Assembly: GCF_900113045.1 (NCBI RefSeq)
Contig: NZ_FONY01000002.1
Span: forward strand, 169,852-233,851
Length of the DNA stretch: 64,000 bases
From: Thermoflexibacter ruber
GTDB taxonomy: Bacteria; Bacteroidota; Bacteroidia; Cytophagales; Thermoflexibacteraceae
Reading direction: 5' to 3'
Both the position numbers and the translations under genes were made by a program. Every line of letters starts with the position of its first letter. The stretch's first letter is position 1. This document shows, in pieces, positions 1-58,654 of this stretch. The notes under the pieces are model-generated. The model searched no databases. It was not told the origin of the DNA and saw nothing but the letters and a program-made list of their open reading frames with translations.

Positions 1-925
1 CCTTAGCAGAGAACTCTTGAAAGTTCAGGTCTATGACTTGATGTTGATGGTCTTTGGCATATTTGCTAATGCGTTGGGAGATAGAGGTTTTTCCGTACTG
101 TCGTGGTGCTTTTATTCTAATAAGCGCATGAGGTTGCAAGATTTGTGCCTTGCATCGCTCATCTACTTCTCGTTCTATGTAAAAAGGAGAGCCAAGAGGC
201 ACTGCTCCTTTGGGTTCTTCTATTTTCAAGGAAGTAGGCATTTTTTTTATCTTAGGCACGATGCCTTTGTTAATATTCCAAGTGCTAATATAGTCATATT
301 CTTCTGAAATACGTAGTTGCCAAGGAAAATTATCAGAGGCTTCTGGAGCATTTTTACGGTACAAGCCTCTTACGTTGCTTGTGTCGTATGAAATTTTGAT
401 GCTATCTACGGCATCAGCCCAAGCAGTCGTCAAATCATTTTCGTTGGCTAAGGCATGGTAAAATCTCGAAGCCAACTGAGTGGCTATGTCGTCTTGGATA
501 GCAGAGGAAGTACTAATGACGGTAGGAATACCCTCTTTGATGAGTTCCTCAGCTTGTTTTTCCGTAGCACAGCCGTTTAAAAAAACCATTTGCAAGCTAT
601 TTCTTCGGGCTAAAAAAGAAACTAAACCTGCTCCCTCAGCTACTGTGGGTTTGCCTTCTGTATCTTCTAAAAGTAATTGGTAGCCGTCAGCATGCCCTCC
701 AAAATGAAAAACAGCAATTCGGTCTTTGTAACGGCTATCTTGAAAGGTATTTAGGATTTCGTCAATGGTAGTATTTGCCTCAAAAATTACTTCACATTTC
801 CCTTGTAATACAGCCCTGTCCAATGCTTTGCGAATCTCGTCTAATTCTTTGGGTAAGTTCCTCAAATAGCGTGCATTGTCTTGGCGGTCATTGGCAAAAG
901 CAAGAAAGAAAATTGGTTTGCTCAT
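1..925 (-). CDS. CHAT-domain protease fused to AAA-like ATPase (3' end outside window)
   Basis: Reading leftwards from the ATG at 923-925, 308 codons stay open to the window edge, so the C-terminal part is missing. Residues about 5-170 look like a CHAT (caspase-like) domain: the FHFGGHADG motif gives the candidate catalytic His78 and VFLNGCAT gives Cys119, in the order and spacing expected for this clan CD peptidase family. After a linker, residues 246-308 match the start of the AAA_35-type ATPase family: an FYIEREVDE segment, then ALIRIKAPRQYGKTS with a Walker A lysine at 279. CHAT domains fused to ATPases are known in bacterial signalling and in some caspase-like defence proteins. The substrate here is unknown. 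The gene lies 153 bp downstream of the permease on the same strand. Domain calls are from motif recognition; function is inference. Confidence 0.8.
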   Translation of the reverse strand, partial: MSKPIFFLAFANDRQDNARYLRNLPKELDEIRKALDRAVLQGKCEVIFEANTTIDEILNTFQDSRYKDRIAVFHFGGHADGYQLLLEDTEGKPTVAEGAGLVSFLARRNSLQMVFLNGCATEKQAEELIKEGIPTVISTSSAIQDDIATQLASRFYHALANENDLTTAWADAVDSIKISYDTSNVRGLYRKNAPEASDNFPWQLRISEEYDYISTWNINKGIVPKIKKMPTSLKIEEPKGAVPLGSPFYIEREVDERCKAQILQPHALIRIKAPRQYGKTSISQRISKYAKDHQHQVIDLNFQEFSAK

Positions 926-4410: not shown

Positions 4411-7400
4411 ATGAAAGAAATTATGAAAAAAGTAAGTACGTCAAATAGTTATTTACAGAAGAGGAGCATTTTATTTAGTATTATTACTGTCTTATTAGTG
4501 GGTTTTTCTAATATTTACGCCGCTGACCGCTATTGGGTAGGAGGGACAGGCAATTGGAATAATACAGCGCGTTGGTCTACTACAAGTGGCGGAGCGGGAG
4601 GGGCAAGTGTCCCTGTCGCAGGAGATAATATTTTCATAGATGCCAACTCTGGTAGTGGGACTATTACTATTAACGTAGCAGCAGTTTGTAATAACCTTAG
4701 TTGGACTTCCAATGCTCTTACTATTAATGGTACAGGCACTAATACCTTGACTATCAATGGCAATTTGTCTGCGGGAAATGGTATTAATTGGACGATGGGC
4801 GGGAATGTTACCGTGAATGGTACGGTAAATATTGGGATAAATACAGTGATGACTTTAAATGGGGCAGCTAATACTTTTAATGGGAATGTAACCATTTTAG
4901 GTACAACAGGCTCGGCTGTAACTATTAATAATGCAACTTTTAACGGGGCTAATAACCAGTTCTATCAAAGATATACTTTTACAGGTGATGCCACTTTTGG
5001 AGTAAACACAGTTACTACCTTTTTAGGTGGTGCCTTTGCCAAAAGTTTTCAAGACCTTGTAGTAAAGCAAGGGGCAACCGTAGATTTCCAGACGCTTGCA
5101 CCCGCCGTCGACCAATTCACTAATATTTACTTAGAAAGTAGTACGACTTTCCGATTTAATGAACAAAGCCTTTGCGACCCCCCTTCGCCACCTTGTACAG
5201 ATTTTAGTAGCATAGTTACAGGGAAAATTGTAGTGAATACCACTATTTGCACTACAGGGGCAAAGAATGCAGTCATTACCTCTACTAATGGAGATTTGTC
5301 TAATATCCGCTTTGATACCGACCAAGAATGGAACAACGTAAACATCAGCAATATTTTTAATGTAGGGAGTGCTAATATTAGGGTAAAAAGTGGAATTTTT
5401 GGTGTTCCCAGCATCAACGGTTTTGAGGACTGGGTAAGTGCGGGACGTAGGGTATATTGGATAGGTGGAACAAGAAGTATGGGTTCACAAGATTGGAATG
5501 ATTGCTTGAACTGGGCTACTTCCTCTGGGGGAACAGTAGAGGGTTCTAATGGCGTCGACCCACCTACAAGCGGTTTGGATACTGTATATTTTGATGCCAA
5601 TTCTTTTTCTGCTTCTCGTAATCAAGTAGTTATTAATACAGGGGCGGGAGCCAAAAACATGATTTGGACAGGAGCAACCCATACACCTACACTTGCAGGC
5701 ACTACAGGTTCTTTGACTATCACAGGAAATTTGGTTTTCATTCCTGCGATGAACGTAACTACGACTGTACCTGTGGTATTCAGTTCCAATAACGTAGGGA
5801 ATACGATTACTATGGCAGGTAAATCGTTTAACGGGAATGTAGATTTTATTTCTCCATCGGCTACTTCTATGGTAGCGGGGACAGGAAGTTGGAATATATT
5901 GGACAATCTAAGTACCAATAGCACAAGTACTATACGCTTCCAATCAGGCACTTTTAATTCTAATAACAATCCCATTACTACAGGCTTTTTTAATGCTAAC
6001 TCTTTATTTGTTCGCAGTGTAAACTTAGGTTCTTCATTGATTACTGTCAATGGTATAGGCAATGTACTTGACTTGATTAACGGACCTCTTGACGATGTTA
6101 CTACACCAACATTTGACTTCAATCCCGGTACATCTACTATGGTATTTAACAATAGTGGGGCGGGGAATATACAATTAGATATTGGTCGGAAGGCGAAAAC
6201 ATTGCCCAACTTTGTATTTAGTGGATTTGATAATGATGTTATTAGTATCAATACAAGTTCTGATGTGGCAGAACGTATTACATTTCAAAATATCACTGTA
6301 AGCACAAGTGGACTACCTAACGCAACGCTTACTATCAGTGGTAAATCGCCAAAGACTTATGGGGCGATTACTTTTGCTAATAATATTTATGCCAACTTTG
6401 ACGGTGTCCCCAACTCTACACCGGGCAGCAACAATATCTTTAATGGTGCTATAGTCATGGGTATAGGCACGCAAGTAAACTTTAATAACTCCAATACCTT
6501 TAATCAAAATGTAACTGTAAGTGGTACATCTGGTACAGGGGTTACATTTACAGGTGATGTTGCAGGCATCAACAATATTTTTAATGGTACAGTGAGCGTG
6601 CCGGGGATAAATAGTAAAGTAGCTTTTGCTAATGAGGGTAATAACAACTTTAATCAAAATATTTTGGTAGGTGGCAGAGTAACTTGGAGTTTTAACTCTT
6701 GTGCTTCCTGCCTTTCTACAGTAGCTACAGGAAGAAACTTTATAGTAACTGCGGCTTGTGGTGATGAGTCTTTGATTAATTCCTCTGGGCAACCTACGGC
6801 AGGTGCCGCCAATGTAAACTTTGGTTTGGACTATCAATGGGAAAATGTAACTGCTCAGAACCTGAACAACTCTACGGGTGTAACGGTGAATATTATTTTA
6901 GGAGGCTCAGGCTCTATAGGAAATACCAATATCAATGTAGCAACGACTTCTCCAAGAACACTCTATTGGGTAGGAGGCACAGGTAATTGGAGCAATGCAA
7001 ATATGTGGTCGACAATAGACCCCACGATGGGCGTACCTAATAATCCCCAGTGTCCGCCAAGATTAATTGATAATGTAATATTCAATAACGGCTCGGGACC
7101 TGCGACGTATGATGTTACTCTTGATACGGATGGGCAAGCCAATAATATTAGTTTTAACGGTACTACTTCTATCCCTACTCTGAGAGGCGCAGCAACAAGG
7201 ACTTTGACTATTGCAGGTAATTTTACTCTGGCTGCGGCAGGTTCTTTGGTACAAAATGCTAATACACCTACCAACTATCAAGGCAGAGTCATTTTTACTA
7301 ACTTGAATCCTGTACCGATGACTCCTCCAAGCATTGCGCTCAGAGGTACGGTCATTTTTAATAATGTGGCTTTTGGCTCGGTAGCTACGCCTGCGGGAAG

Positions 7401-10400
7401 TGCGTGGAATTTAGATGCTACTAATGGCAACTTAACCGTTGTAAACAAAATAGAATTAGTTTCAGGAACACTCAATACCAATGGAAGAGCAGTAAACACG
7501 GCTTTCTTTGACGCTAATCCCAAAGGTCTGCCAAGTCCTGTAAGTAACTTACCACGCACTTTGACTTTGGGGAATACCATAATGACGATAACAGGGGCTG
7601 GCACTGCATCGCCTGATGACCCCGCCTTAGATTTAAGAGGAAGTAATTTAACAGTTACAGTACCTGGTGCCTCTTCAAGGATAGACATGACCAATGTAGG
7701 CAATATTATAGTTTATACAGGCTCACAAACAGGTGGTAGAACGCTCCCACGTATAGACTTCACTGCCAACGTGGCTACTGCTAATACTATTACAGTTAAT
7801 ACAGAGAACAACACAGACCGCCTCACTTTCAGAGAGCTAAATATCAATGCGAATAGAACCAATCTTACCTTTTTAGTAAATGGAACTTCTCCCAAAACAT
7901 ACAGCACAGGCTTTAATTTGGGTAGTGGCGCCTCCAATGGCAATATTACGGTGGTCTTGGACGGTTCTTCTGACAATATGAATCCTAACATCTTTGATGG
8001 CTTAGTTACCTTAGGTCGCTCTGGTGGCGCAGGTATTACAGCTACCATTCGCAATGCCAATGTTTTTAATAACAATGTGATAGTGAGGACAACCACAACC
8101 ACAGGCATTACTTTCACAGGAACCGGCAATAACAACTTTGATACTGACCCTGCACGTACTTTTACCTTTGCCAATACAGGAGGTAGAGTAACTTTCTCTA
8201 ATACAGGGACTAATAGCTTTGCCAATATTACTATGAACTCTAGCGTAATTATGAGGCTTACACCTAATACTATTGGTAACAACACATTAAGCGGAATACT
8301 GAACCCCAACGCAAATTGTAATGCACCCGCAACGCTCAGAGCAACTACCCCATTGGCTAACTTAAATGCAAGTGTAGCACAGTCTTGGAGTGATATTGTG
8401 GTGAATGATATTAATAGCACGGGAGCCAATATTACGATTCTTAGCAAAGACTTAACAGGCTCTACAGGCAATTTTACTTTTACACCTGCTTTGCGAAATC
8501 TTTATTGGGTAGGGGGTAGAACGGATAATACACTTTCTACTAATACACTCTGGAGCAATCCTAACAATTGGTCAGAGATAGACCCTACCTCTGCTATGTA
8601 TAACCCCACAACAAGTCCAGGTGTTTGTATTCCTAATTCATGCTCAGACAACGTATTTTTCAATGCAGGCTCTTTTACTAATCCTGCCAAGGTAAATGTC
8701 AATATAGATGTGGTGGCTTTGTGTGGAAATATGGATTGGACAGGTGCTACTAACACACCAAACTTGTCAGGAACTACTGATTTGACTATTTGTGGTAGCC
8801 TCACTTTTATCAATGCTATGACTCAGGACGGTACGGTTGCTACTTATTCTGGAACAGTAACCTTCCGAGGAGAACCAGCCGCCACAGCAAAAACAATTAC
8901 TATGGCAGGCAAGCGTTTGAATAATGCCAATTTCACAGGTTCATCAAATACAAGTGAGTGGAATATTCAAAACACACCTGCAAGTGTAAATAATACATTC
9001 CATGTATTAAATACAATCAGATTGATTAGAGGGAGGTTAAATGTAACTGATGTAACTGGTGATGCCAACCCTGATGTAATTTGTAATGTTTTTGATGCTG
9101 ATAATGGAAGTGATTTGGTCAGGAGATTAGACTTTGGAGCAGATGCGTTGATTCAGGTAAGGGGAACTGGCGATGTATTGGACTTAGCTGGGAATACGGG
9201 TAATTTCACTATTACTTACAGTACAGACCCTACGGGAACTTCTACTATTGAGCTTAATAATGCAGGAAATATCAATGTATATGTAGGTACGCAATCCAAG
9301 ACTATTCCTAATCTGAATTTTTCTACTGCTTCAGGAAATACAATTAATATTAGCGATAATAATCCTACTACGAATCCTACCACCAATCGTATTACCTTCC
9401 GAAATATTACTGTAGCTAACAATAGGGTCTTTAATATGCAAACCAATGCTCCTAAAACCTATGGAGATATTACGGGAACAGGTGTCATTACTTTTGGCAA
9501 CAATACCAACGCTACCTTTAATGGAACAGACAACCCTGCTTTAGCCACTGTAAATACTACAAGCAATGTTTTTAATGGAACGGTAACTTTTGGAACAGGC
9601 ACGAGGGCTTTATTTAATAATAACAACCTGTTCAATGCCGCAGTGCAGTTTGGAAGTACAACTACCAATAACACCAATACGCAAAATGTGTATTTCTCAC
9701 GAAGTAATACCTTCATGAGTACCCTTACGTTCACCAATGCAGGACCGGGTTGGGCTACTTTTGGGCAAAACGGGACACAAAACATTTTTGAAGGAGCGGT
9801 AGCTTTCAACGGTCTGCGAAATAACTTGACTACTTTGGGGAATAATACTTCTTTTGCGAGGTATTACAGTACGCTCTATGTCAATTCTGGTGTACCCGGA
9901 CCTGAACAAAGCACAGGCACTTTTAATTCTCAGGTAGAGTACAGAGATAATGTAACTTGGGGAGATGGAGCAGGCGGCATTGCAGTTGCGCCTGTTACTT
10001 ATAACCAAGAAGTAGATATGCACAACACCTTAGGAACGAATGGTGCCGCAGGTTCCCCCGCAGGTAGAGAATTTTTGACAGGCATAGATTCTCGTTTTGT
10101 TTTTAATGCTATCAGCAATTTCAGAAATATGCGACATGGACAAAATAACCTCATCACCTATAACCGCATTACAAGCCATGATAATTACTTCCTGACTCGT
10201 TTTGATATAGTGCTTTACCCTAATGTTATAGCTGATGCAGGAACAAGTGTAATACGCCAAAGAATGGAGGCATATGTAGATTGTAACTCTTGGATTCGCA
10301 TAGCATCTACTTTGCCGACCGAACAAGCAAACCTTCAATTTAATGAACCACATACTAACTCTACCCAACCACCTATAGGAACAACACCACACAGAAGATT

Positions 10401-13400
10401 TGAGTACACGCTTTTCCAAGACATTAACAAAGTGGCGGCTGGTGGAGCGCATGTGCAGGCATTGCCAGCTAATACAGCAGACATCTCCAATAATACAGAT
10501 TATAATCCTGTTACTCAAGCAGGTATTAACTTTATCAATCCGATTACTAAACGAACTTTTTATTGGGTAAGAAGTGTGAACCAAATTAATGCGGCGGCTA
10601 CAAATGCTTCTGGTGATTGGGCTGATGAAGCCTTAGACAACCACTGGTCTTCTCCTGATTTGCCTGTAATGGTTAATCCGATGACTATGATGCCTACCCC
10701 CAATGTAGGTGGCTTTGGCGGTTCAGGTTTAGGACCCTCAGGCTGTATTCCTACGCCCATAGATTCAGTAGTATTTGACAATAACTCATTGGCAAGTACA
10801 GTAGTAACCGTAGATAAATACTCTGTTTACTCCAATGGTCAAAATTGGGCAAATACAGTTCCTATTACCTTACAAGGGTCTGATGTTTATACCATTCACG
10901 TTTATGGCACTTTCAAAGGTTCACCAAATACTACTAACAATTTTGGAGGTACTTATTTCTTTACAGGCACAGACACGCAAAATGGTCAAATAGAGTCTAT
11001 TACAAGCAATACACAGCGTTTCTTCGGTCCTGTAGTATTTAATAATGAGCGAGATAGGTGGGTAATTACTGATAATATGAATATAGAAAACAATGCAAGG
11101 GGTAGTTTTACTATCAACTATGGCATTGTGGATATGGGTGGATTAATCAACAATCCTACCCCGCCAACGCTTACTTTAGATGGCAACTTTACTATGACTG
11201 CCAGAGTAAGTGCAGCCTTACGTGTGCCTTTATTTATCCCAAGAAATAGTACAGTAATTTTTGATGGAAAAAATAACGACCAAGAAATTCGAATGGACGG
11301 TAATACCACCAATGGGCAAATGAAAAGTACCGCTGGATGTGTGGAGTGTACCCAATATACCACTGACCCTACTACCAACGCACATGTAGAGGTAGTACCC
11401 GGTGTAACTACCTTGAATCCACCTGCTAACAGTACACATTTAGATTCTCGAGTAATTTCTTGTAATAGAAGTCCTTTTTATAATATTATCGTAGATAAGC
11501 GATGGGATAGAACACTTAATATTCAAGGGCAAAATGGTGCTATTGCTCTCTCTATTTACAATGACTTTAAAATTCTTAATGGTAGAGTAGTCGATAACGG
11601 TAATCAAATTAGAGGAAATGTTACTAATCCACTCAATACTGGTGGCAATAGCGGGGTAATGGAAATGTCCAATAACACAGCCCTAATTTTAGGGAGTAAT
11701 GGAACTCCTACCGTTTTTCCTACATGTTTTCGAACTGCCAATATTTCGCTTGCGCCCATGCCAAGAGGCAATGTCTATATAAATCCCACTGTAACGGGTA
11801 ATAATATGGCACCTATGAACCCGGCAGGAGCGGGCGGAAATGGTGCAAATAACTCGCCTGAAGTACGTTATATATGTAGAGATAATAGACAAATGGTAGC
11901 AGGAACGTTAGATAGAACTTTTGCTATGCCCGTAGGCACAGTCGCAGTAGGTCCAGCTGAGTACGGCACACTTACTTTAGCAGGAGTTACAGGTGCGGCT
12001 GTACGCTCCAAAGACTTGACAGGTCCCATTACTATTCATGGTACTCTACGCATTTTAGGAGGAAACATTTTTAGGGACATGGGTAAACAAATTACTGGGA
12101 ATAATTATTTGAATACTACTGCTCCACAAACTTTTAATATGATTTTTATTAATGGAGCAAGTAACTCAGATAGAGCAGTTTTGGAGTTGGGAACAGCGGA
12201 GAATGTGGCGGCTTCACCTCTGACATATAGCAATACTTCTCTTCCTGCCAATATCCCAAGACCACTTACTACAGCGGCTGACCCTGTTACTGCCAATGTA
12301 GCTACCACCTTCCCAAGTTTCACTAATAATGTGGCTAACTTTGTTATTGGGGCTCCCAATACAGGCAAAATGGTCTTACGTGAGTTTAGTACCGTTATCT
12401 ACAATGCGGGTGCAAACCAACAGGTTTGGGGTAACTTTACTTATGGGAACTTGACAGTACGCTCTCCCGGACGAACTGCCTTGCCTTTAGTACGTAAAAC
12501 AGTTACTCGACACCCTTCTATTCTGACAGACATAAACTTAGATGTTGCAGGAGATTTGAGATTAGAAGATTTTAATGACTTAATAGACGATGGCTGGCAA
12601 ATTGACGGTAGAGTAAACAAAACTTACACTGCCTTACCTAATTCTCGACTTACTTTGGGTATTAGCAATAAAGCAACTGAGTTCCCTAAGGAGTATGTCA
12701 ATGCAAATATCAACTTAGATGCTACCAATGACACATACTACAATGCAGGCGCACTCTCGAGCATAACAGACCCGCGACAAATCATGTCAACTGTACCTAC
12801 TTATGGTAGTTTAGTGCTTTCTGACCCTGATTCTTTGACTAATTTGATATTGATAGAAAAACGTTTCCAGCCCGTAGCTCCCGTAAGTATCAAAGGAGAT
12901 ATTACAGTAAAACGTCATAATCACCTCAACGACAATGGTAGCCAGATTAGTCGCTTAACTGCAGGGGGAGTTTTGACGTTGGAAAATGGCGACCCTACCA
13001 ATGTGCCTTTGGATAGTAGCCAAGTTACTCGCTTGACTCTGGGAAGTGCTACCTCAAGTACAACTTTACCTTTGAACTTTACTACTACCTTGTTGAATGA
13101 TAATACTACTGTAGTTTATACCTCTGGTCTTACCCAGTTGGTAGCTGGAGGGACGAGGCTCAACGGAGCTCCCCCCAATAGCTATTACAATGTTTGGTTG
13201 CAATCACTCCCGGCAGCTACACCTGCTGTTAAAAACTTGGAAGGAGCGATTACAGTAAGAAATGACTTAGTAATAAGACATAGTATTCGCTTTAATGATG
13301 CTAATAGTGATGTAGCCCCTACCAATGCTTTCCAAATAACGGGAAATGCCACAGGGAATCTGACTATGGAAGCAAGTAGTGAACTGCGTCTAAACAAGGC

Positions 13401-15510
13401 AAATACCATGACTTCTACAGTATTTCCTACTAATTTTATCAGAACAAGAATAGGTTTGCATACATCAAGCAAAGTAATTTATAACTCTAATGTAGCCCAA
13501 GACGTATCCAGTGTGCCGATGTATGGATGTGTAATTTTCAGAAAATTTACGCCGACTGCTCCTATGATTAATAAAACAATCACTACTGTTCGTCCAACTT
13601 TAGATGTAAGAGGTGATAGCTTAAGAATAGAGGCTTATAATCACCTGATAGACAATGGAGTACAAATTGACGGAACCAGTGATGGATTTATGTTTATGGA
13701 TTACAGAAGCCAACTGACCTTAGGAACTCCAGCAACAGCCACTACTTTCCCTATGGACTTTTTGACTTCTAAAATTGATATGGATATTTGGTCTAATTAT
13801 CCGACAAATACCAATCTCAGACCTAAAACTGATATGAACTTTGTGGTTTATAATTCTGACCAACCGCAAAACATCACTGCCGCCTCACCATCTAGCACCG
13901 TAGGACCAGGTAAAACTATTGCTACAGGAGCAGATAAGGCTTCTTGGTATGGAAATGTGAGGCTTAGTTCTACTGTACCTGTAACTAAATTTTTACAAGA
14001 TAGCGTGAACATCAGAGGAGGGCTTTATATAGGCACGAATAACACCTTAGATGCTACTACTAATAATTATAAAATTTACTTAGGTGGCGACTGGGAAGCC
14101 TCACCAAACTCTGATTTCATTGCACGACAAGGAAGAGTAATTTTAGACGGCATAGACAGAACACAAAATATCACTACCGATGCCGCTCCTTTCTACAACT
14201 TAGAAATCAATAAGCCCGGGACAAACCGTACTGCTGTACTTCTCGACCCGTTGAGGCTTACTAATTTGGCATTCTACAAAGGAGGATTCTTTATTTCTGA
14301 TGTAGGTAGGGAATTTATTTATGATGTCAATGCCAATCATAGTACAGAATGGGGAACAGGAAAGGAATATACTACCGCAGACCCTCTTTCAAATGGACCA
14401 AGTGCCTCAAGCCACGTATTTGGTCCTGTAACCAAGATTGGGGTAAGCGACGTAACACGCTTTTATTTCCCTGTGGGCAATACTTCGGTATATGCTCCTG
14501 CCGGTATCCGCGCCCCAGCAGGTGCAAACCCTGCAACGACTATCACAGGTCGTTACTTTGGAACAAACTCAGGGCTAACAGGCATAGATGCTACGCCTTG
14601 CCCTTCATTGCCTATGAATAATGTAAGTACGGCAGAATATTGGACTTTAGATGCACCGGGAGGTACTACTGCCCCTACGGGTATCCAAGTAACACTAAGC
14701 TGGGCGGCAAATAGGAGTGGAGGTGTTACTAATTCAAGCCTACTTAGAGTAGCACACTATTATAACGGAGGCACAGGATTAAAATGGTATTGTGAAGGCA
14801 GGGACAATACGCTAAGTCCAGACAACGACCTCTCGGCAATGCCCGCACCTCCATTTGCCGGTGGTATGGTAACTTCTTCTAATACAAGCATCACTGTATT
14901 TAGTCCATTTACTTTAGGTTCTCTAAGTCCTGTCAATCCTTTGCCTATCCAGTTGGTAAAGTTTGAAGCAAAAGCAGTGGCTGAGAAGAAGATAGTAGAA
15001 CTTTTCTGGCAAACTGCTACTGAAATCAATAATGACTTCTTTACTTTGGAGAAAAGCAAGGACGGAAGAAATTTCATTGAATTTAAAAGAGTGCCTTCTA
15101 AAAATGGTAACAGTAGAGTAACTAATGATTACTTTGAGATAGACACCGAACCTATGCGAGGACTCTCTTATTATCGCCTCAAGCAGACGGATATAGACGG
15201 AACTTTTACTTATTCAAAAATTGTGGCAGTGTATTTTGAAGGAGAAAATAGTGAAGGAGGGTTCTTGCTCTATCCAAATCCAGCAGAAAGCGATATTAAT
15301 ATACAAATCTTTGATAAAGGCTTGGAGGAAGGTATGGTAAGTATTTCAGATATGCTTGGTAGAGAAGTATATAACACATTTATAGAAGATATTTCACCTG
15401 ATAAAGTATTTAATATTCAGTTTAAGCAAAGTCTGTCCTCTGGGGTGTATATATTGAAGTTTGTGGGGAGAAACAAGTCTTATGTGCGCTCTTTTGTAGT
15501 AAACAAATAG
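4411..15510 (+). CDS. Giant T9SS-secreted repetitive surface protein (3699 aa)
   Basis: The protein has a signal peptide (hydrophobic core about residues 19-36, likely cleavage after IYA), a long Asn/Thr/Gly-rich beta-solenoid-like body and a C-terminal T9SS type A sorting domain from about residue 3620 (LYPNPAESD, ending FVVNK). Five modules begin with a YWVGG-type motif: YWVGGTGNW near residue 42, then Tyr349, Tyr852, Tyr1365 and a degenerate YWVRS at Tyr2051. They are followed by W-rich and DNVxF segments. A second repeat family, roughly NHLIDNGxQI then LTLG and FPxxF, recurs six times starting near residues 2385, 2545, 2715, 2830, 2952 and 3069. An LPIQLVKFEAKA domain precedes the sorting signal, as in many Bacteroidota secreted proteins. 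An adhesin or gliding-related surface role is inference. An alternative start lies four codons downstream. The gene stands alone. Confidence 0.9.
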   Translation: MKEIMKKVSTSNSYLQKRSILFSIITVLLVGFSNIYAADRYWVGGTGNWNNTARWSTTSGGAGGASVPVAGDNIFIDANSGSGTITINVAAVCNNLSWTSNALTINGTGTNTLTINGNLSAGNGINWTMGGNVTVNGTVNIGINTVMTLNGAANTFNGNVTILGTTGSAVTINNATFNGANNQFYQRYTFTGDATFGVNTVTTFLGGAFAKSFQDLVVKQGATVDFQTLAPAVDQFTNIYLESSTTFRFNEQSLCDPPSPPCTDFSSIVTGKIVVNTTICTTGAKNAVITSTNGDLSNIRFDTDQEWNNVNISNIFNVGSANIRVKSGIFGVPSINGFEDWVSAGRRVYWIGGTRSMGSQDWNDCLNWATSSGGTVEGSNGVDPPTSGLDTVYFDANSFSASRNQVVINTGAGAKNMIWTGATHTPTLAGTTGSLTITGNLVFIPAMNVTTTVPVVFSSNNVGNTITMAGKSFNGNVDFISPSATSMVAGTGSWNILDNLSTNSTSTIRFQSGTFNSNNNPITTGFFNANSLFVRSVNLGSSLITVNGIGNVLDLINGPLDDVTTPTFDFNPGTSTMVFNNSGAGNIQLDIGRKAKTLPNFVFSGFDNDVISINTSSDVAERITFQNITVSTSGLPNATLTISGKSPKTYGAITFANNIYANFDGVPNSTPGSNNIFNGAIVMGIGTQVNFNNSNTFNQNVTVSGTSGTGVTFTGDVAGINNIFNGTVSVPGINSKVAFANEGNNNFNQNILVGGRVTWSFNSCASCLSTVATGRNFIVTAACGDESLINSSGQPTAGAANVNFGLDYQWENVTAQNLNNSTGVTVNIILGGSGSIGNTNINVATTSPRTLYWVGGTGNWSNANMWSTIDPTMGVPNNPQCPPRLIDNVIFNNGSGPATYDVTLDTDGQANNISFNGTTSIPTLRGAATRTLTIAGNFTLAAAGSLVQNANTPTNYQGRVIFTNLNPVPMTPPSIALRGTVIFNNVAFGSVATPAGSAWNLDATNGNLTVVNKIELVSGTLNTNGRAVNTAFFDANPKGLPSPVSNLPRTLTLGNTIMTITGAGTASPDDPALDLRGSNLTVTVPGASSRIDMTNVGNIIVYTGSQTGGRTLPRIDFTANVATANTITVNTENNTDRLTFRELNINANRTNLTFLVNGTSPKTYSTGFNLGSGASNGNITVVLDGSSDNMNPNIFDGLVTLGRSGGAGITATIRNANVFNNNVIVRTTTTTGITFTGTGNNNFDTDPARTFTFANTGGRVTFSNTGTNSFANITMNSSVIMRLTPNTIGNNTLSGILNPNANCNAPATLRATTPLANLNASVAQSWSDIVVNDINSTGANITILSKDLTGSTGNFTFTPALRNLYWVGGRTDNTLSTNTLWSNPNNWSEIDPTSAMYNPTTSPGVCIPNSCSDNVFFNAGSFTNPAKVNVNIDVVALCGNMDWTGATNTPNLSGTTDLTICGSLTFINAMTQDGTVATYSGTVTFRGEPAATAKTITMAGKRLNNANFTGSSNTSEWNIQNTPASVNNTFHVLNTIRLIRGRLNVTDVTGDANPDVICNVFDADNGSDLVRRLDFGADALIQVRGTGDVLDLAGNTGNFTITYSTDPTGTSTIELNNAGNINVYVGTQSKTIPNLNFSTASGNTINISDNNPTTNPTTNRITFRNITVANNRVFNMQTNAPKTYGDITGTGVITFGNNTNATFNGTDNPALATVNTTSNVFNGTVTFGTGTRALFNNNNLFNAAVQFGSTTTNNTNTQNVYFSRSNTFMSTLTFTNAGPGWATFGQNGTQNIFEGAVAFNGLRNNLTTLGNNTSFARYYSTLYVNSGVPGPEQSTGTFNSQVEYRDNVTWGDGAGGIAVAPVTYNQEVDMHNTLGTNGAAGSPAGREFLTGIDSRFVFNAISNFRNMRHGQNNLITYNRITSHDNYFLTRFDIVLYPNVIADAGTSVIRQRMEAYVDCNSWIRIASTLPTEQANLQFNEPHTNSTQPPIGTTPHRRFEYTLFQDINKVAAGGAHVQALPANTADISNNTDYNPVTQAGINFINPITKRTFYWVRSVNQINAAATNASGDWADEALDNHWSSPDLPVMVNPMTMMPTPNVGGFGGSGLGPSGCIPTPIDSVVFDNNSLASTVVTVDKYSVYSNGQNWANTVPITLQGSDVYTIHVYGTFKGSPNTTNNFGGTYFFTGTDTQNGQIESITSNTQRFFGPVVFNNERDRWVITDNMNIENNARGSFTINYGIVDMGGLINNPTPPTLTLDGNFTMTARVSAALRVPLFIPRNSTVIFDGKNNDQEIRMDGNTTNGQMKSTAGCVECTQYTTDPTTNAHVEVVPGVTTLNPPANSTHLDSRVISCNRSPFYNIIVDKRWDRTLNIQGQNGAIALSIYNDFKILNGRVVDNGNQIRGNVTNPLNTGGNSGVMEMSNNTALILGSNGTPTVFPTCFRTANISLAPMPRGNVYINPTVTGNNMAPMNPAGAGGNGANNSPEVRYICRDNRQMVAGTLDRTFAMPVGTVAVGPAEYGTLTLAGVTGAAVRSKDLTGPITIHGTLRILGGNIFRDMGKQITGNNYLNTTAPQTFNMIFINGASNSDRAVLELGTAENVAASPLTYSNTSLPANIPRPLTTAADPVTANVATTFPSFTNNVANFVIGAPNTGKMVLREFSTVIYNAGANQQVWGNFTYGNLTVRSPGRTALPLVRKTVTRHPSILTDINLDVAGDLRLEDFNDLIDDGWQIDGRVNKTYTALPNSRLTLGISNKATEFPKEYVNANINLDATNDTYYNAGALSSITDPRQIMSTVPTYGSLVLSDPDSLTNLILIEKRFQPVAPVSIKGDITVKRHNHLNDNGSQISRLTAGGVLTLENGDPTNVPLDSSQVTRLTLGSATSSTTLPLNFTTTLLNDNTTVVYTSGLTQLVAGGTRLNGAPPNSYYNVWLQSLPAATPAVKNLEGAITVRNDLVIRHSIRFNDANSDVAPTNAFQITGNATGNLTMEASSELRLNKANTMTSTVFPTNFIRTRIGLHTSSKVIYNSNVAQDVSSVPMYGCVIFRKFTPTAPMINKTITTVRPTLDVRGDSLRIEAYNHLIDNGVQIDGTSDGFMFMDYRSQLTLGTPATATTFPMDFLTSKIDMDIWSNYPTNTNLRPKTDMNFVVYNSDQPQNITAASPSSTVGPGKTIATGADKASWYGNVRLSSTVPVTKFLQDSVNIRGGLYIGTNNTLDATTNNYKIYLGGDWEASPNSDFIARQGRVILDGIDRTQNITTDAAPFYNLEINKPGTNRTAVLLDPLRLTNLAFYKGGFFISDVGREFIYDVNANHSTEWGTGKEYTTADPLSNGPSASSHVFGPVTKIGVSDVTRFYFPVGNTSVYAPAGIRAPAGANPATTITGRYFGTNSGLTGIDATPCPSLPMNNVSTAEYWTLDAPGGTTAPTGIQVTLSWAANRSGGVTNSSLLRVAHYYNGGTGLKWYCEGRDNTLSPDNDLSAMPAPPFAGGMVTSSNTSITVFSPFTLGSLSPVNPLPIQLVKFEAKAVAEKKIVELFWQTATEINNDFFTLEKSKDGRNFIEFKRVPSKNGNSRVTNDYFEIDTEPMRGLSYYRLKQTDIDGTFTYSKIVAVYFEGENSEGGFLLYPNPAESDINIQIFDKGLEEGMVSISDMLGREVYNTFIEDISPDKVFNIQFKQSLSSGVYILKFVGRNKSYVRSFVVNK

Positions 15511-43419: not shown

Positions 43420-43625
43420 AAATAATTTTTAAAAATTAGTTCTATTTTTGAAAACTTTTGCAATATTTTTGTTAATAACCTAAGGTAAAATTCTGCTTGT
43501 TTCCTAATAGCACCCCCAATGCACAGTGTACTCGCATCAGAAATTGTTTAATTTTCAATATTTTTTTCATATATTGTTTTAACTTTACAGTTTATACAAC
43601 ATTACTTACTAAATCCATTGCGACC

Positions 43626-45737
43626 ATGAAAAGGGGTTTTGTGTTATTTTTATTGATTTTGCAAACATTGATTGCTGCCGCTCAGCAGAATCCAACCGCA
43701 CTTTTGAAAGTTAAGATTGATAGTTTAGAAAAGGCTTTATCCAAATCCAAAGGTGATAAATCTAAAATAGCTAAGATTTATCAAGATTTAGGAATGATTT
43801 ATCAAATGAATGATGATAGTGAAAATGCACTCAAAAACTTTCAAGAGGGGCTAAAACTTTATGAAGAACTAAAGAATAACCAACAAGCTGCAAGTCTTTA
43901 TACAGCTATCGGGAAAATGTATTTTGACCGAAGAGATAACAACAAAGCTTTAGAATACTATCGCAAGGCACAGAACGTTGTTCAGCAATTAAACGACCAA
44001 AAAGAAATCACGAAGCTAAACCTGCTTATTGCAGAGGCACACGAGCAGAAAGGCGACCTGAGAACTGCAAGAGAATACAACTTAAGAGCCTTAGAATCAG
44101 CAGAAAATATGCGAGATGAAAAACTTACAAGTAACGCTCTTAGCAACTTAGGTGATGTATTTATGAAATTAGGGAGTTACCAAGATGCTTTGCAGTACAC
44201 ACTTCGTTCTTTGGAGATAAAAAGGGGAGAAGGCGATAAAGCTGGCATGGCACACGTACTGACCACTATGGGAGAGATTTATACAAAATTAGGGCAGTAT
44301 GAAAAAGCCAATGGGTATTTTCAAGAAGGTTTGCAGTTAGCCCAACAAATCAATGCCCGCCAACTTCAGTTGAACTTGTATCTTTCATTGTTTGAGTATC
44401 ACGAATCTAAAAAAGAATATCAAAAAGCTTTAGAATACCACAAAGATTATGTAGCTCTCAAAGATAGCCTTTTCAATATTGCGAGAGATAGACAGATGAA
44501 TGAACTTGCTGTCCGCTACGAGTCCGCTAAAAAAGAAAGAGAAAATCTCGAGCTTCAACAAAAAATAACAGAAGACCAAGCCGCCATCCAAAGTAAAAAC
44601 CAGCTATTGGTTGCAACAGGGATAGGGGCGATTGTGTTACTTGTATTTGGGCTTTGGATTTTGCGAGATAACCAAAAACTCAAACAGCTCAATGCTTTGC
44701 ATCAAAAAGATGAATTAGAGATTAAACGGAAAAATGAGGAGTTAGAAAAGCAACAAGAGGAAATCCTAAAAAGGCAGGAGCAAATCAACCAGACTAAAGC
44801 AGAGTTAGAAAAGCAGAAAGAAGAACTTGAGTTGAAGTCAGAACAATTGCAATTTGCTTATGAAGCTATCAATGATACAAATGCAGAACTTCGCCAGCAG
44901 AAAGAAGCAATGAAGCAACAAAACACTGAGCTTCGTCATAAAAATCTCCAAATCATGGAGAGTATCCGCTACGCCAAAGATATTCAGGAAGTCCTGCTCC
45001 CTTCTGAAAAACGTATGCAAGAGGCTTTCCAAGAATATTTTATCCTTTCTCGTCCGAAAGATATTGTTTCAGGAGATTTTTATTGGTTATCTCAAAAAGA
45101 AATAGACGGCAGCAAAAAAACAATACTGGTTACGGCAGACTGCACAGGACATGGAGTTCCCGGTGCCTTGCTTACCATTATCGGAGGTAACATCTTAAAT
45201 CAGCTTATCAATGAGCGAAATATGAGCAAACCAGAGGAGATTCTGCAAACGCTTAATGATAATTTCGTAGCTACCTTACAACAAGAGGAAAGCCAGATAG
45301 GGGATAGCATGGATATTTCGCTTTGTATCATAGACCACCAGCAAAAAGAAGTAGCTTTCTCTGGGGCAAAAACACCCATATTTTATGTGCAAAATGGAGA
45401 AATACACGAACTTAAAGGAAGTCCAAGACATATCGGAGGCTTGCATAGACAGCGTAAAAGAAATGTTGCGTTCACTACTACAACCTTCTCTATCGCCGCT
45501 CCTACGACCTTATATATGATTTCAGACGGCTTTTATCATCAGTTTGGGGGCAGACCTTTCCGCAAGTTCATGAGAGATAACTTCAAAAAATTACTTTTAG
45601 AAGTTTCTGATAAACCACTTGCCAACCAAAAAGAATTGTTGGAAACACACTTAGATCACTGGATGCAGGATACCGATGCTTCTCTTAGTCCTTTCCCACA
45701 AATAGATGATATTTTGGTAGTAGGGGTAAAAATATGA
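43626..45737 (+). CDS. TPR membrane protein with SpoIIE/PP2C serine phosphatase domain
   Basis: The 703-residue signalling protein has a signal peptide (MKRGFVLFLLILQTLIAAAQ), about six tetratricopeptide repeats in the periplasm (residues 45-300), one TM helix (about 327-347) and a long coiled coil rich in Glu/Gln/Lys (350-440). A cytoplasmic SpoIIE-type PP2C phosphatase follows (about 443-703), with SGDFYWLSQ and TADCTGHGVPGALLTIIGG metal-binding motifs and ISDGFYHQFGG. RsbU-like enzymes of this kind dephosphorylate anti-anti-sigma factors. The target is not encoded nearby. The frame extends upstream to 43497, but the signal peptide fixes the start at 43626. A TPM-domain gene follows after 19 bp. 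Confidence 0.92.
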   Translation: MKRGFVLFLLILQTLIAAAQQNPTALLKVKIDSLEKALSKSKGDKSKIAKIYQDLGMIYQMNDDSENALKNFQEGLKLYEELKNNQQAASLYTAIGKMYFDRRDNNKALEYYRKAQNVVQQLNDQKEITKLNLLIAEAHEQKGDLRTAREYNLRALESAENMRDEKLTSNALSNLGDVFMKLGSYQDALQYTLRSLEIKRGEGDKAGMAHVLTTMGEIYTKLGQYEKANGYFQEGLQLAQQINARQLQLNLYLSLFEYHESKKEYQKALEYHKDYVALKDSLFNIARDRQMNELAVRYESAKKERENLELQQKITEDQAAIQSKNQLLVATGIGAIVLLVFGLWILRDNQKLKQLNALHQKDELEIKRKNEELEKQQEEILKRQEQINQTKAELEKQKEELELKSEQLQFAYEAINDTNAELRQQKEAMKQQNTELRHKNLQIMESIRYAKDIQEVLLPSEKRMQEAFQEYFILSRPKDIVSGDFYWLSQKEIDGSKKTILVTADCTGHGVPGALLTIIGGNILNQLINERNMSKPEEILQTLNDNFVATLQQEESQIGDSMDISLCIIDHQQKEVAFSGAKTPIFYVQNGEIHELKGSPRHIGGLHRQRKRNVAFTTTTFSIAAPTTLYMISDGFYHQFGGRPFRKFMRDNFKKLLLEVSDKPLANQKELLETHLDHWMQDTDASLSPFPQIDDILVVGVKI

Positions 45738-56890: not shown

Positions 56891-56927
56891 AAAGAGGCTA
56901 ACTTTTTATGGTAGCCTCTTTTTTTAT
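56891..56927. terminator. Terminator of the rpsF-rpsR-rplI operon
   Basis: AAAGAGGCTA (56891-56900) pairs with TAGCCTCTTT (56912-56921) and a long T run follows. An A-rich left flank may let it work for the convergent gene too. Confidence 0.9.
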
Positions 56928-56928
56928 T

Positions 56929-57474
56929 TTATCTGAATGTAAATAGTTCACTTCTTGCACTTAGCTCTCTCTCATTGGTCATAAATTTGAGAACAAGATT
57001 TACCTTTTGAGGAAGTTTTAAGGTTTTTTCTTCTACTAATACTACATAAATAGTAATACTTTCTCCACTTTTACACTCATAGGGTTCTTGAGAGGAAGGT
57101 TTAAAAAGATACCTATAGTTGTCTTCTTCTTTAGGAATATGCACCCACCAGATAGATTTTTCATCTCCTCTCTGGCTGTCTTCTTCCAATTTTCCCAGCT
57201 CTTTTTGGTCAGTGATAGGAAGATTTATTTTGCGTGTGGCTTCTACTTGCAAACCTGTGATGTAGAGCGTATTTCTACTTCTATTTTGCATGGTAAAGGC
57301 TAAAGCAGATAAGTCTTTGCACATACATCTTTCCTCTACTGCTTGGAGGTTATTAATTTTTTTTACACTCACAATTTTAAAATCTTTATGCCTGTTGCGG
57401 CGGTTGTTTTGTGCTGTTCCTACTGTCCATACAAGTAGAAATAGGCAAATGGTCAAAAACGCTCTCATTATCAT
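56929..57474 (-). CDS. Secreted homologue of the TIR protein's outer domain
   Basis: The 181-residue protein has a signal peptide (MRAFLTICLFLLVWTVGTAQ; Met3 is an alternative start) and one beta-rich domain. By eye this domain aligns over its whole length with the extracytoplasmic part of the neighbouring TIR protein: FKIVSVKK with LKVINIKE, ALAFTMQNRSRNTLYITGLQ with VLNFILHNKGNQDFDIAYIK, VHIPKEEDNYRYLF with IEIPNEYPNTHYLY, and LVLKFMTNERELSARSELFTF with FVVHFITVQRTYALSKSFYF. It lies 40 bp downstream of the TIR gene on the same strand. No known domain name was recognised. It may be a ligand decoy, co-receptor or modulator of the TIR protein (inference). Confidence 0.75.
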   Translation of the reverse strand: MIMRAFLTICLFLLVWTVGTAQNNRRNRHKDFKIVSVKKINNLQAVEERCMCKDLSALAFTMQNRSRNTLYITGLQVEATRKINLPITDQKELGKLEEDSQRGDEKSIWWVHIPKEEDNYRYLFKPSSQEPYECKSGESITIYVVLVEEKTLKLPQKVNLVLKFMTNERELSARSELFTFR

Positions 57475-57514
57475 TTAGCAGAAAAAAGAATTAGGTAATA
57501 TATTAAAAATTAGC

Positions 57515-58654
57515 TTACTGGTATTCAGAATACAAAGCACCTTCTTCAAAATAGAAACTTTTTGAAAGAGCATAAGTTCTTTGTACAGTAATAAAGTGTA
57601 CTACAAATTCTGCACTTGTATCAGGAAGAAGATAATTATTTTGCTTTTTTTGATAAAAAACTATGGGCAAAACGATTTGTTTTTCCCTTGGACAGTGAAA
57701 AGAAGGTGTTACAGCATAAAGATAATGAGTATTTGGGTACTCATTAGGAATCTCTATGGCAAAAATGTTAGGTTCTTGAGAGGTATCGCTTATTTTTCGC
57801 AAGACACCTGCTCTACTATTAAAATATAAGTCTTCATTATTTCTTTGGGCTTCTACTTTAATATATGCGATGTCAAAATCTTGATTACCTTTGTTGTGCA
57901 AGATAAAGTTCAGCACCATCAATCCTTTGTAATCATTGCTTAGATAGTCTTCCGTCTTATCTTCCTTGATATTGATGACTTTAAGTTTGTCCACATTAGG
58001 ATTGTCAAAGTCTATTGTTACTTCAAGAAATTTAGTGATTTCTTTGAAAGAGTCTGCTATTGTCAAAGTATCTTTTTTAATAGGCGGGAGTGCAGGTTGA
58101 GAATGATTCTCCGAGGGTACGTTGAGTAGCTTGTACAAAGACAAAGCTAAAACTGCTGCTACCAAACTAAGCAAAAACTTGCTCTCGAGCAGAAAAAGAG
58201 GAATAAAAGACATGAGCAGTTTTTTGGGTGGTGGGGGAGGGGCTTCTGGATTTCTTACTCTTGCCGCAATAAGTTTTGCTAATTTAGATACACTTATGTT
58301 GTTGGCTTCTACCAGCCTAATGTTGCGAATGAGCGTAAATATGGGATTGTTTTCTATGTACTTATAAGTTACCCCATAAGCTACAGGAATGATATACTGA
58401 GGGGCTTTGTTATAGCAACCATTCTCAAACTCTATCTTGTGCCAGTTTCGCTGGTAGTGCTTGCTGATGAGCGGAAGGAAAAAAGGAGCGTGATGTAAAG
58501 CATGGCTAATTTCTCCATAGATGTTACCCGCAATGCCTACATTCTTGGCACTGCACCATGCTTTAATGCCTTCTTTTTGCAGAGCTTCGCAAAGCTTTAC
58601 TGCATAAGCCTCATTCTCATCTGCAAAACTGATAAAAATATCGTACTCTGTCAT
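57515..58654 (-). CDS. Membrane-anchored TIR-domain protein with extracytoplasmic domain
   Basis: The 379-residue protein has an N-terminal TIR domain (about 1-135): YDIFISFADENEAYAVKLCE is box 1, the LISKHYQRNWHKIEFENG region carries the candidate NADase glutamate Glu75 four residues after Trp71, and FTLIRNIRLVE follows. A PPPPP linker (139-143) leads to a hydrophobic region at about 146-177. The C-terminal beta-rich domain (about 195-379) should lie outside the cytoplasm if the TIR is inside. Bacterial TIR domains commonly cleave NAD or make signalling nucleotides in phage defence, but transmembrane forms with an outer sensor are less usual. The next gene encodes a secreted copy of the outer domain. 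The start is the first ATG, directly before the TIR fold. Confidence 0.88.
   Translation of the reverse strand: MTEYDIFISFADENEAYAVKLCEALQKEGIKAWCSAKNVGIAGNIYGEISHALHHAPFFLPLISKHYQRNWHKIEFENGCYNKAPQYIIPVAYGVTYKYIENNPIFTLIRNIRLVEANNISVSKLAKLIAARVRNPEAPPPPPKKLLMSFIPLFLLESKFLLSLVAAVLALSLYKLLNVPSENHSQPALPPIKKDTLTIADSFKEITKFLEVTIDFDNPNVDKLKVINIKEDKTEDYLSNDYKGLMVLNFILHNKGNQDFDIAYIKVEAQRNNEDLYFNSRAGVLRKISDTSQEPNIFAIEIPNEYPNTHYLYAVTPSFHCPREKQIVLPIVFYQKKQNNYLLPDTSAEFVVHFITVQRTYALSKSFYFEEGALYSEYQ

Follow-up and report, generated by a model that had tools for sequence, protein, structure and literature searches.

A 64,000-nucleotide stretch of the Thermoflexibacter ruber genome (contig NZ_FONY01000002.1, positions 169,852-233,851 of the forward strand), referred to here as the window, carries a gene for a membrane-bound TIR protein (P0001, the receptor) followed by a gene for a secreted paralogue of its outer domain (P0002). 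The receptor as it occurs in related genomes, with a gene for a caspase-like TPR-CHAT protein as its neighbor, is a more promising object than this two-gene pair, and the adjacency points tentatively to a protease-controlled alarm system not described so far. A tentative reading of the sequences, plausible yet short of probable, is an inner-membrane TIR receptor that would be controlled by a CHAT protease, with P0002 as a soluble competitor or co-receptor.

TPR-CHAT Genes beside the Receptor

A TPR-CHAT gene is found near the receptor gene in all five relatives that carry the outer domain (genomes G001, G002, G003, G005 and G009). It lies downstream of the receptor gene on the same strand in three of them, at a distance of 13 bp in G001 (measured to the probable ATG; taken mechanically, the frame overlaps by 11 bp), 15 bp in G003 and 60 bp in G009. 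The two genes are convergent in G005, 115 bp apart. With G002 included, the linkage takes three gene orders in three genera. A CHAT gene stands within 1.5 kb, a limit picked post hoc from the data, at five of seven receptor loci against 0.10 expected from CHAT counts and rounded genome sizes (P ~1e-8 if the loci are taken as independent, 4e-5 if they are collapsed by genus).

The five linked proteins all have TPR repeats and a CHAT domain with its His/Cys pair, and the His and Cys motifs are kept in 15 of 15 aligned CHAT proteins (the five linked ones and ten from T. ruber itself). A signal-like N-terminus is present in four of the five; the fifth protein starts 58 bp from a contig end. Passages of a paper on craspase, the TPR-CHAT protease of type III-E CRISPR, describe the genes of CHAT substrates as commonly lying near the protease gene (PMC9729208). 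Since a protease gene stands beside the receptor gene in the relatives, control of the receptor by the protease is suggested.

Neither of the two full receptor genes of T. ruber has a CHAT gene nearby. Each of the five linked CHATs was compared with 11 CHAT proteins of this organism, and in every case the best match was the one on contig C69. This protein clusters with the CHATs of G001 and G002 (support 99/98), and a wider group takes in those of G003 and G005 (92/90). Because the closest relative in T. ruber is encoded on another contig, a cognate CHAT protease may act in trans in this organism. On C69 (L057) the counterpart of the G001 CHAT appears as two genes, 7237-7782 and 8064-10850. 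The first encodes a small signal-bearing protein like the N-terminus of the G001 CHAT, the second a TPR-CHAT protein with a signal-like start of its own. The window also has a weak CHAT match near its start (410-904, minus strand, E 8e-10).

The Receptor and Its Paralogue

The features of the T. ruber locus, in window coordinates, are as follows.

57515-58654, minus strand: P0001, the TIR receptor gene, 379 amino acids; cytoplasmic TIR domain, proline linker, one transmembrane (TM) helix and outer beta domain
58241-58654, minus strand: TIR domain of P0001, residues 1-138, with W71 and the candidate catalytic Glu75 (codon 58430-58432); PF13676, 3.7e-13
58142-58198, minus strand: TM helix of P0001, residues 153-171, from hydropathy; the model has a helix at 154-177, where its confidence score (predicted local distance difference test, pLDDT) is <50
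57518-58018, minus strand: outer beta-sandwich domain of P0001, residues 213-379, presumably periplasmic; from model strands at 224-376 and the family alignment
56929-57474, minus strand: P0002, secreted paralogue of the outer domain, 181 amino acids; from homology to the P0001 outer domain
57412-57474, minus strand: signal-peptide-like N-terminus of P0002, residues 1-21; from hydropathy, with cleavage before Q22 judged by eye
56893-56919, no strand assigned: hairpin with T-tails on both strands (tails judged by eye); z -5.7 against shuffles

The layout described in the original prediction is accurate: both genes are on the same strand, and P0002 begins 40 bp downstream of P0001 (gap 57475-57514). 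A single segment of P0001 exceeds the hydropathy threshold, residues 153-171, with a mean Kyte-Doolittle value of 2.15, behind a run of prolines. P0002 starts with the signal-peptide-like sequence MIMRAFLTICLFLLVWTVGTA/Q, the peptide type and cleavage site being judged by eye; inspection of its N-terminus by eye gave no convincing lipobox. The hairpin separates the TIR-P0002 unit from the ribosomal S6-S18-L9 genes and is likely a terminator shared by this unit and the rplI (L9) unit. It was not listed by the consensus scan, and the promoter scan gave 6 sites against 7.8 expected.

The TIR_2 match of P0001 (PF13676, 3.7e-13) scores 50.5 bits, above the cut-off of 28. In a model of the protein (mean pLDDT 67, four sequences), the TIR domain has as its top structural match SPARTA (8ifl_A; Z 16.9, root-mean-square deviation (rmsd) 2.0, 129 residues), tied with AbTir (7uxu; Z 16.6, rmsd 2.1, 130 residues). 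The choice of Glu75 as candidate catalytic residue is supported, as W71-x3-E75 aligns in profile alignments with the W-x3-E of AbTir and BtTir, whose glutamate we take to be catalytic in those enzymes. Both W71 and E75 are invariant in five of five aligned TIR proteins, P0001 included. Because of the fold match to AbTir and SPARTA and these aligned, invariant residues, the P0001 TIR domain is likely to cleave nicotinamide adenine dinucleotide (NAD), that is, to have NADase activity. Among the PADLOC profiles, PDC-S66 matches P0001 in its TIR part only (E 1.3e-11), and none matches P0002.

P0001 thus shares the TIR fold and the aligned W-x3-E with the bacterial TIR NADases AbTir and BtTir; it differs in that a TM helix joins its TIR domain to an outer beta domain. 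The TIR fold is also shared with SPARTA (TIR-APAZ/pAgo), a cytoplasmic system triggered by nucleic acid, in contrast to the membrane receptor P0001.

Homology and Fold of P0002

P0002 is homologous to the outer domain of P0001, as originally proposed (BLASTP 27% identity over 131 residues, E 2e-8). When the whole genome was searched with P0001, two further matches came up at E <=10, one of them P0002 (E 5.4e-5). Profiles built without P0002 detected it as the sole other match among the 333 frames of the window, with an E value, scaled to the genome, of 1.4e-20 for seven rows; a profile of five rows from other genomes only matched it at 5.3e-15 on the same scale. Chance similarity was ruled out by a shuffle test: the Smith-Waterman score of P0002 and the outer domain is 97, and 500 shuffles averaged 32 and reached at most 62 (z 11.4). 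The alignment had been said to run along the whole length of the protein; it does cover most of P0002, and the wording is slightly generous for residues 53-180 (BLASTP) or 45-180 (profile).

Conserved positions are well kept. Eight of the nine columns invariant in six receptor outer domains are retained by P0002, or four of five when the cut-off row of G009 is added. This is similar to the receptors themselves, which retain between 9/9 and 9/13 invariant columns when left out one at a time. Because it keeps 8/9 columns as a left-out receptor does, P0002 looks like a maintained, folded domain. It has three cysteines, C50, C52 and C134; cysteines occur at similar places in the outer domain of G001, and a periplasmic disulfide is possible.

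A structural comparison of the two domains was also called for in the original prediction. Both models are beta sandwiches with a similar strand order; the likeness is a weak one, between models of low-to-middling confidence compared without superposition. The P0002 model (mean pLDDT 63) is closest to ApaG and other immunoglobulin-like (Ig-like) folds, with 1tza_B as the best match (Z 7.9, rmsd 3.0, 102 residues), a value within the background range stated for the tool. Solved structures searched with the outer-domain profile gave one match, at E 0.2.

Origin of P0002

In a tree of seven outer domains, P0001 and the second receptor of T. ruber, on contig C50, are sisters (100/99), and P0002 branches outside this pair, in a fork with G001 that is not resolved. 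Its branch is the longest of the tree, 1.64 changes per column, and its outer-domain identities are 25% to P0001, 30% to the C50 receptor and 29% to G001. Recent duplication of the P0001 outer domain was considered and rejected: a tree constrained to join P0002 with P0001 has an approximately unbiased test value (p-AU) of 0.0017. Joining P0002 with the C50 receptor gives 0.0035; these constraints were named after the tree had been seen. Because the two receptors are sisters with P0002 outside, and because the constraint joining it to P0001 was rejected, P0002, judged by these alignments, is not a recent copy of the adjacent gene. An older duplication within this lineage is possible, since P0002 grouped with both T. 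ruber receptors has a p-AU of 0.50.

P0002 could also be an evolutionary by-product: the outer domain of an ancient receptor copy, shorn of its TIR domain and TM helix, that acquired a signal peptide and has at present little function or an unrelated one. The long branch fits this, as does the failure to find any relative of its kind in the 13 genomes of the taxonomic family. The open frame, the signal-like N-terminus and the invariant columns kept speak against it, since decay would erode all three, and we regard a by-product as unlikely.

Distribution across Genomes

In the taxonomic family, where all candidates were scored, a profile made from seven outer domains (including P0002) detected the outer-domain family in 6 of the 13 genomes. 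A seventh match, G007 (E 0.23), was discarded when the protein proved on reading to be unrelated. T. ruber has three members (P0001, P0002 and the full receptor on C50), and each of the five relatives has one. A TM helix and a longer N-terminus precede the outer domain in four of these five, the N-terminus of the G009 protein being cut by a contig end. Thus the N-terminus is a TIR domain in three relatives, something else in one (G003) and cut off in one (G009). The G003 protein (L032 9856-11076) has the same TM helix and outer domain behind an N-terminus that matches neither TIR nor any Pfam family, and for this reason the outer domain behaves as a module able to serve different N-termini.

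The idea of a conserved two-gene pair did not survive the comparison. The pair was found in none of the five relatives, the secreted form in 1 of the 13 family genomes, and none stands beside the C50 receptor of T. ruber. The absence from G001 and G003 is soft, as these genomes are 62% and 89% complete, and a contig end hides the N-terminus of the G009 member. These counts bear on the view that the pair is itself the unit, with the soluble copy serving as decoy, co-receptor or ligand-sharing partner and with no protease involved. The 40-bp spacing on one strand, the closing 3' hairpin and the conserved core of P0002 are all in its favor; the restriction of the secreted form to one genome, and there to one of two receptors, counts against it, and it seems to us improbable. 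Regulated dimerisation and decoy binding, both suggested originally, are possible and draw no backing from conservation.

In the order and the phylum, where scoring was limited to the top 8 first-look candidates of each genome, a wide spread of the outer domain was not borne out. Ten of 390 order genomes have a match at E <=0.05, and the six of the taxonomic family are alone at E <=7e-18. The four further matches have E values of 0.03-0.05; two (L027, L030) are unrelated on reading and two (L028, L029) are unread. Among 395 genomes of the phylum there were 2 matches, T. ruber itself and G409 (E 0.001), and the G409 protein is unlike the outer domain on reading. A scan of genome contigs with P0001 alone and a scan of viral contigs gave nothing useful.

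G007 has TIR-TM proteins of other kinds. For example, the outer part of the protein at L070 9986-11281 (the same protein as L013 541-1836) is unlike the P0001 outer-domain family and, by eye, perhaps lectin-like.

Proposed Mechanism and Alternatives

In the mechanism envisaged, P0001 would be an inner-membrane receptor with its Ig-like (ApaG-like) sandwich on the periplasmic side and its TIR domain in the cytoplasm. Once receptors come together, the TIR domain would probably cleave NAD+ or make an NAD-derived signal. A periplasmic CHAT protease might cut the outer domain, or dock on it, upon a threat and so switch the TIR domain on or off. P0002, as a soluble outer domain, would most likely tune the receptor, either by competing for the protease or a ligand or by joining the receptor complex.

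If real, a TIR receptor with a periplasmic sensor beside a mostly signal-bearing CHAT protein would be a means of detecting attack at the envelope. To our knowledge, the known bacterial TIR effectors are all triggered from the cytoplasm. The pairing of receptor and CHAT would join two widespread effector kinds across the inner membrane, and the receptor is a possible substrate for one CHAT subfamily of these bacteria.

Several observations weigh against a CHAT-controlled receptor. CHAT genes are common in the family, with 1-12 strong matches per genome in the 13 genomes. The CHAT gene of G002 lies ~1.4 kb upstream of the receptor gene with two genes between, and the G009 CHAT falls, unresolved, outside the supported group of linked CHATs. 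In T. ruber the contig of the C50 receptor has no CHAT match, and the single match on the window's contig is weak and ~56 kb away. The surroundings of P0001, where neighbors were read and partly scanned with Pfam, look like housekeeping genes and not a defence island. Without a relative of its own kind, the function of P0002 is not constrained by conservation. The models of P0001 and P0002 are weak (mean pLDDT 67 and 63), and the contact, cleavage, NADase and defence steps are ones that we infer from sequence.

It is quite doubtful that the receptor senses the state of the envelope or a small ligand for housekeeping signalling, with CHAT linkage reflecting shared regulation: T. ruber receptors without a CHAT neighbor, the housekeeping surroundings and the unrelated outer parts of other TIR-TM proteins in the family (e.g., WG repeats) agree with it, and linkage in three gene orders and three genera does not.

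Comparison with Known Systems

Animal Toll-like and IL-1 receptors have an outer sensor, a TM helix and an inner TIR domain, and soluble decoy forms of the outer part occur. A bacterial counterpart of Toll, in which a secreted TPR-CHAT protease would switch a TIR NADase receptor with a periplasmic Ig-like domain and at least one species would add a secreted decoy, is the boldest form of the protease-controlled reading, and we hold it to be rather unlikely. If true, it would mean an NAD-depleting cell suicide triggered from outside the inner membrane. The likeness is one of analogy only, as the TIR domain of P0001 is N-terminal (the reversed order) and its outer domain is not made of leucine-rich repeats.

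In open-access PMC papers, and for the terms searched, no TIR-TM receptor with a CHAT neighbor or a secreted outer-domain paralogue was found. Three described systems share part of the arrangement. The linked CHAT proteins resemble craspase, as far as it is covered in passages of PMC9729208, in combining TPR repeats with a CHAT domain bearing the His/Cys pair; they differ in that four of five have a signal-like start and in that the neighboring gene encodes a membrane receptor and not Csx30. Excerpts of PMC10907252 describe the Thiohalocapsa DGR 2 target, a putative conflict system in which a single diversified sensor protein carries both CHAT and TIR. The receptor loci of the relatives likewise bring CHAT together with TIR; unlike that single, retroelement-diversified and predicted cytoplasmic protein, they have two genes, a membrane receptor and mostly signal-bearing CHATs. 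'System 4' of Kaur et al., a membrane-associated two-gene caspase system from actinobacteria and proteobacteria, also has a membrane protein gene adjoining a gene of the caspase superfamily; in the sections of PMC7159879 that present it, its caspase differs in being fused to effectors.

Neighboring Genes and Other Observations

A family of uncharacterised proteins of ~310 amino acids, here called the helper, is encoded immediately upstream of the receptor gene in G001 and G005. It also occurs in G007 two genes from a TIR-TM-WG protein: at C43 (L081 2044-4110), a TIR-TM protein whose outer part contains TPR and WG repeats is two small genes from a helper member. A role as general TIR partner was rejected, as no receptor is near the helper in G002 or near its two copies in G000, which lie close to a CHAT gene. 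The G009 helper is truncated by a contig end, and in three more distant genomes the short flanks of the helper show no TIR gene. At E <=1e-6 it is found in 9 of 390 order genomes. For two members no Pfam family passes the cut-off, and a PDB search with the helper profile found nothing at E <=1. Helper loci include L034 9135-10067, L033 7781-8713, L078 7539-8477 and 11448-12338, and L079 1715-2623; the C-terminal half is conserved.

Ten selected proteins from G001, G002, G003 and G005 were compared with defence families, and the G002 receptor locus gave AbiL-like, PDC-S03 and PD-DExK matches. A pair like an AbiL/AriA-type ATPase and its partner (G002 L035 9861-11515) is ~4 kb from the receptor gene.

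The position of the T. ruber unit beside rplI is not a conserved one: the L9 surroundings were read in six relatives, and in none does a receptor stand beside the gene. In G005 the receptor and L9 share a contig, ~12 kb apart. An L9 region was also located in G007 and left unread, and none was found in G003.

Two other genes of the window can be mentioned. A 3699-residue protein in which many similar repeats are seen by eye, with a C-terminal type IX secretion system sorting domain, is encoded at 4411-15510 (plus strand), and a TPR protein ending in a SpoIIE-type phosphatase domain at 43497-45737 (plus strand).
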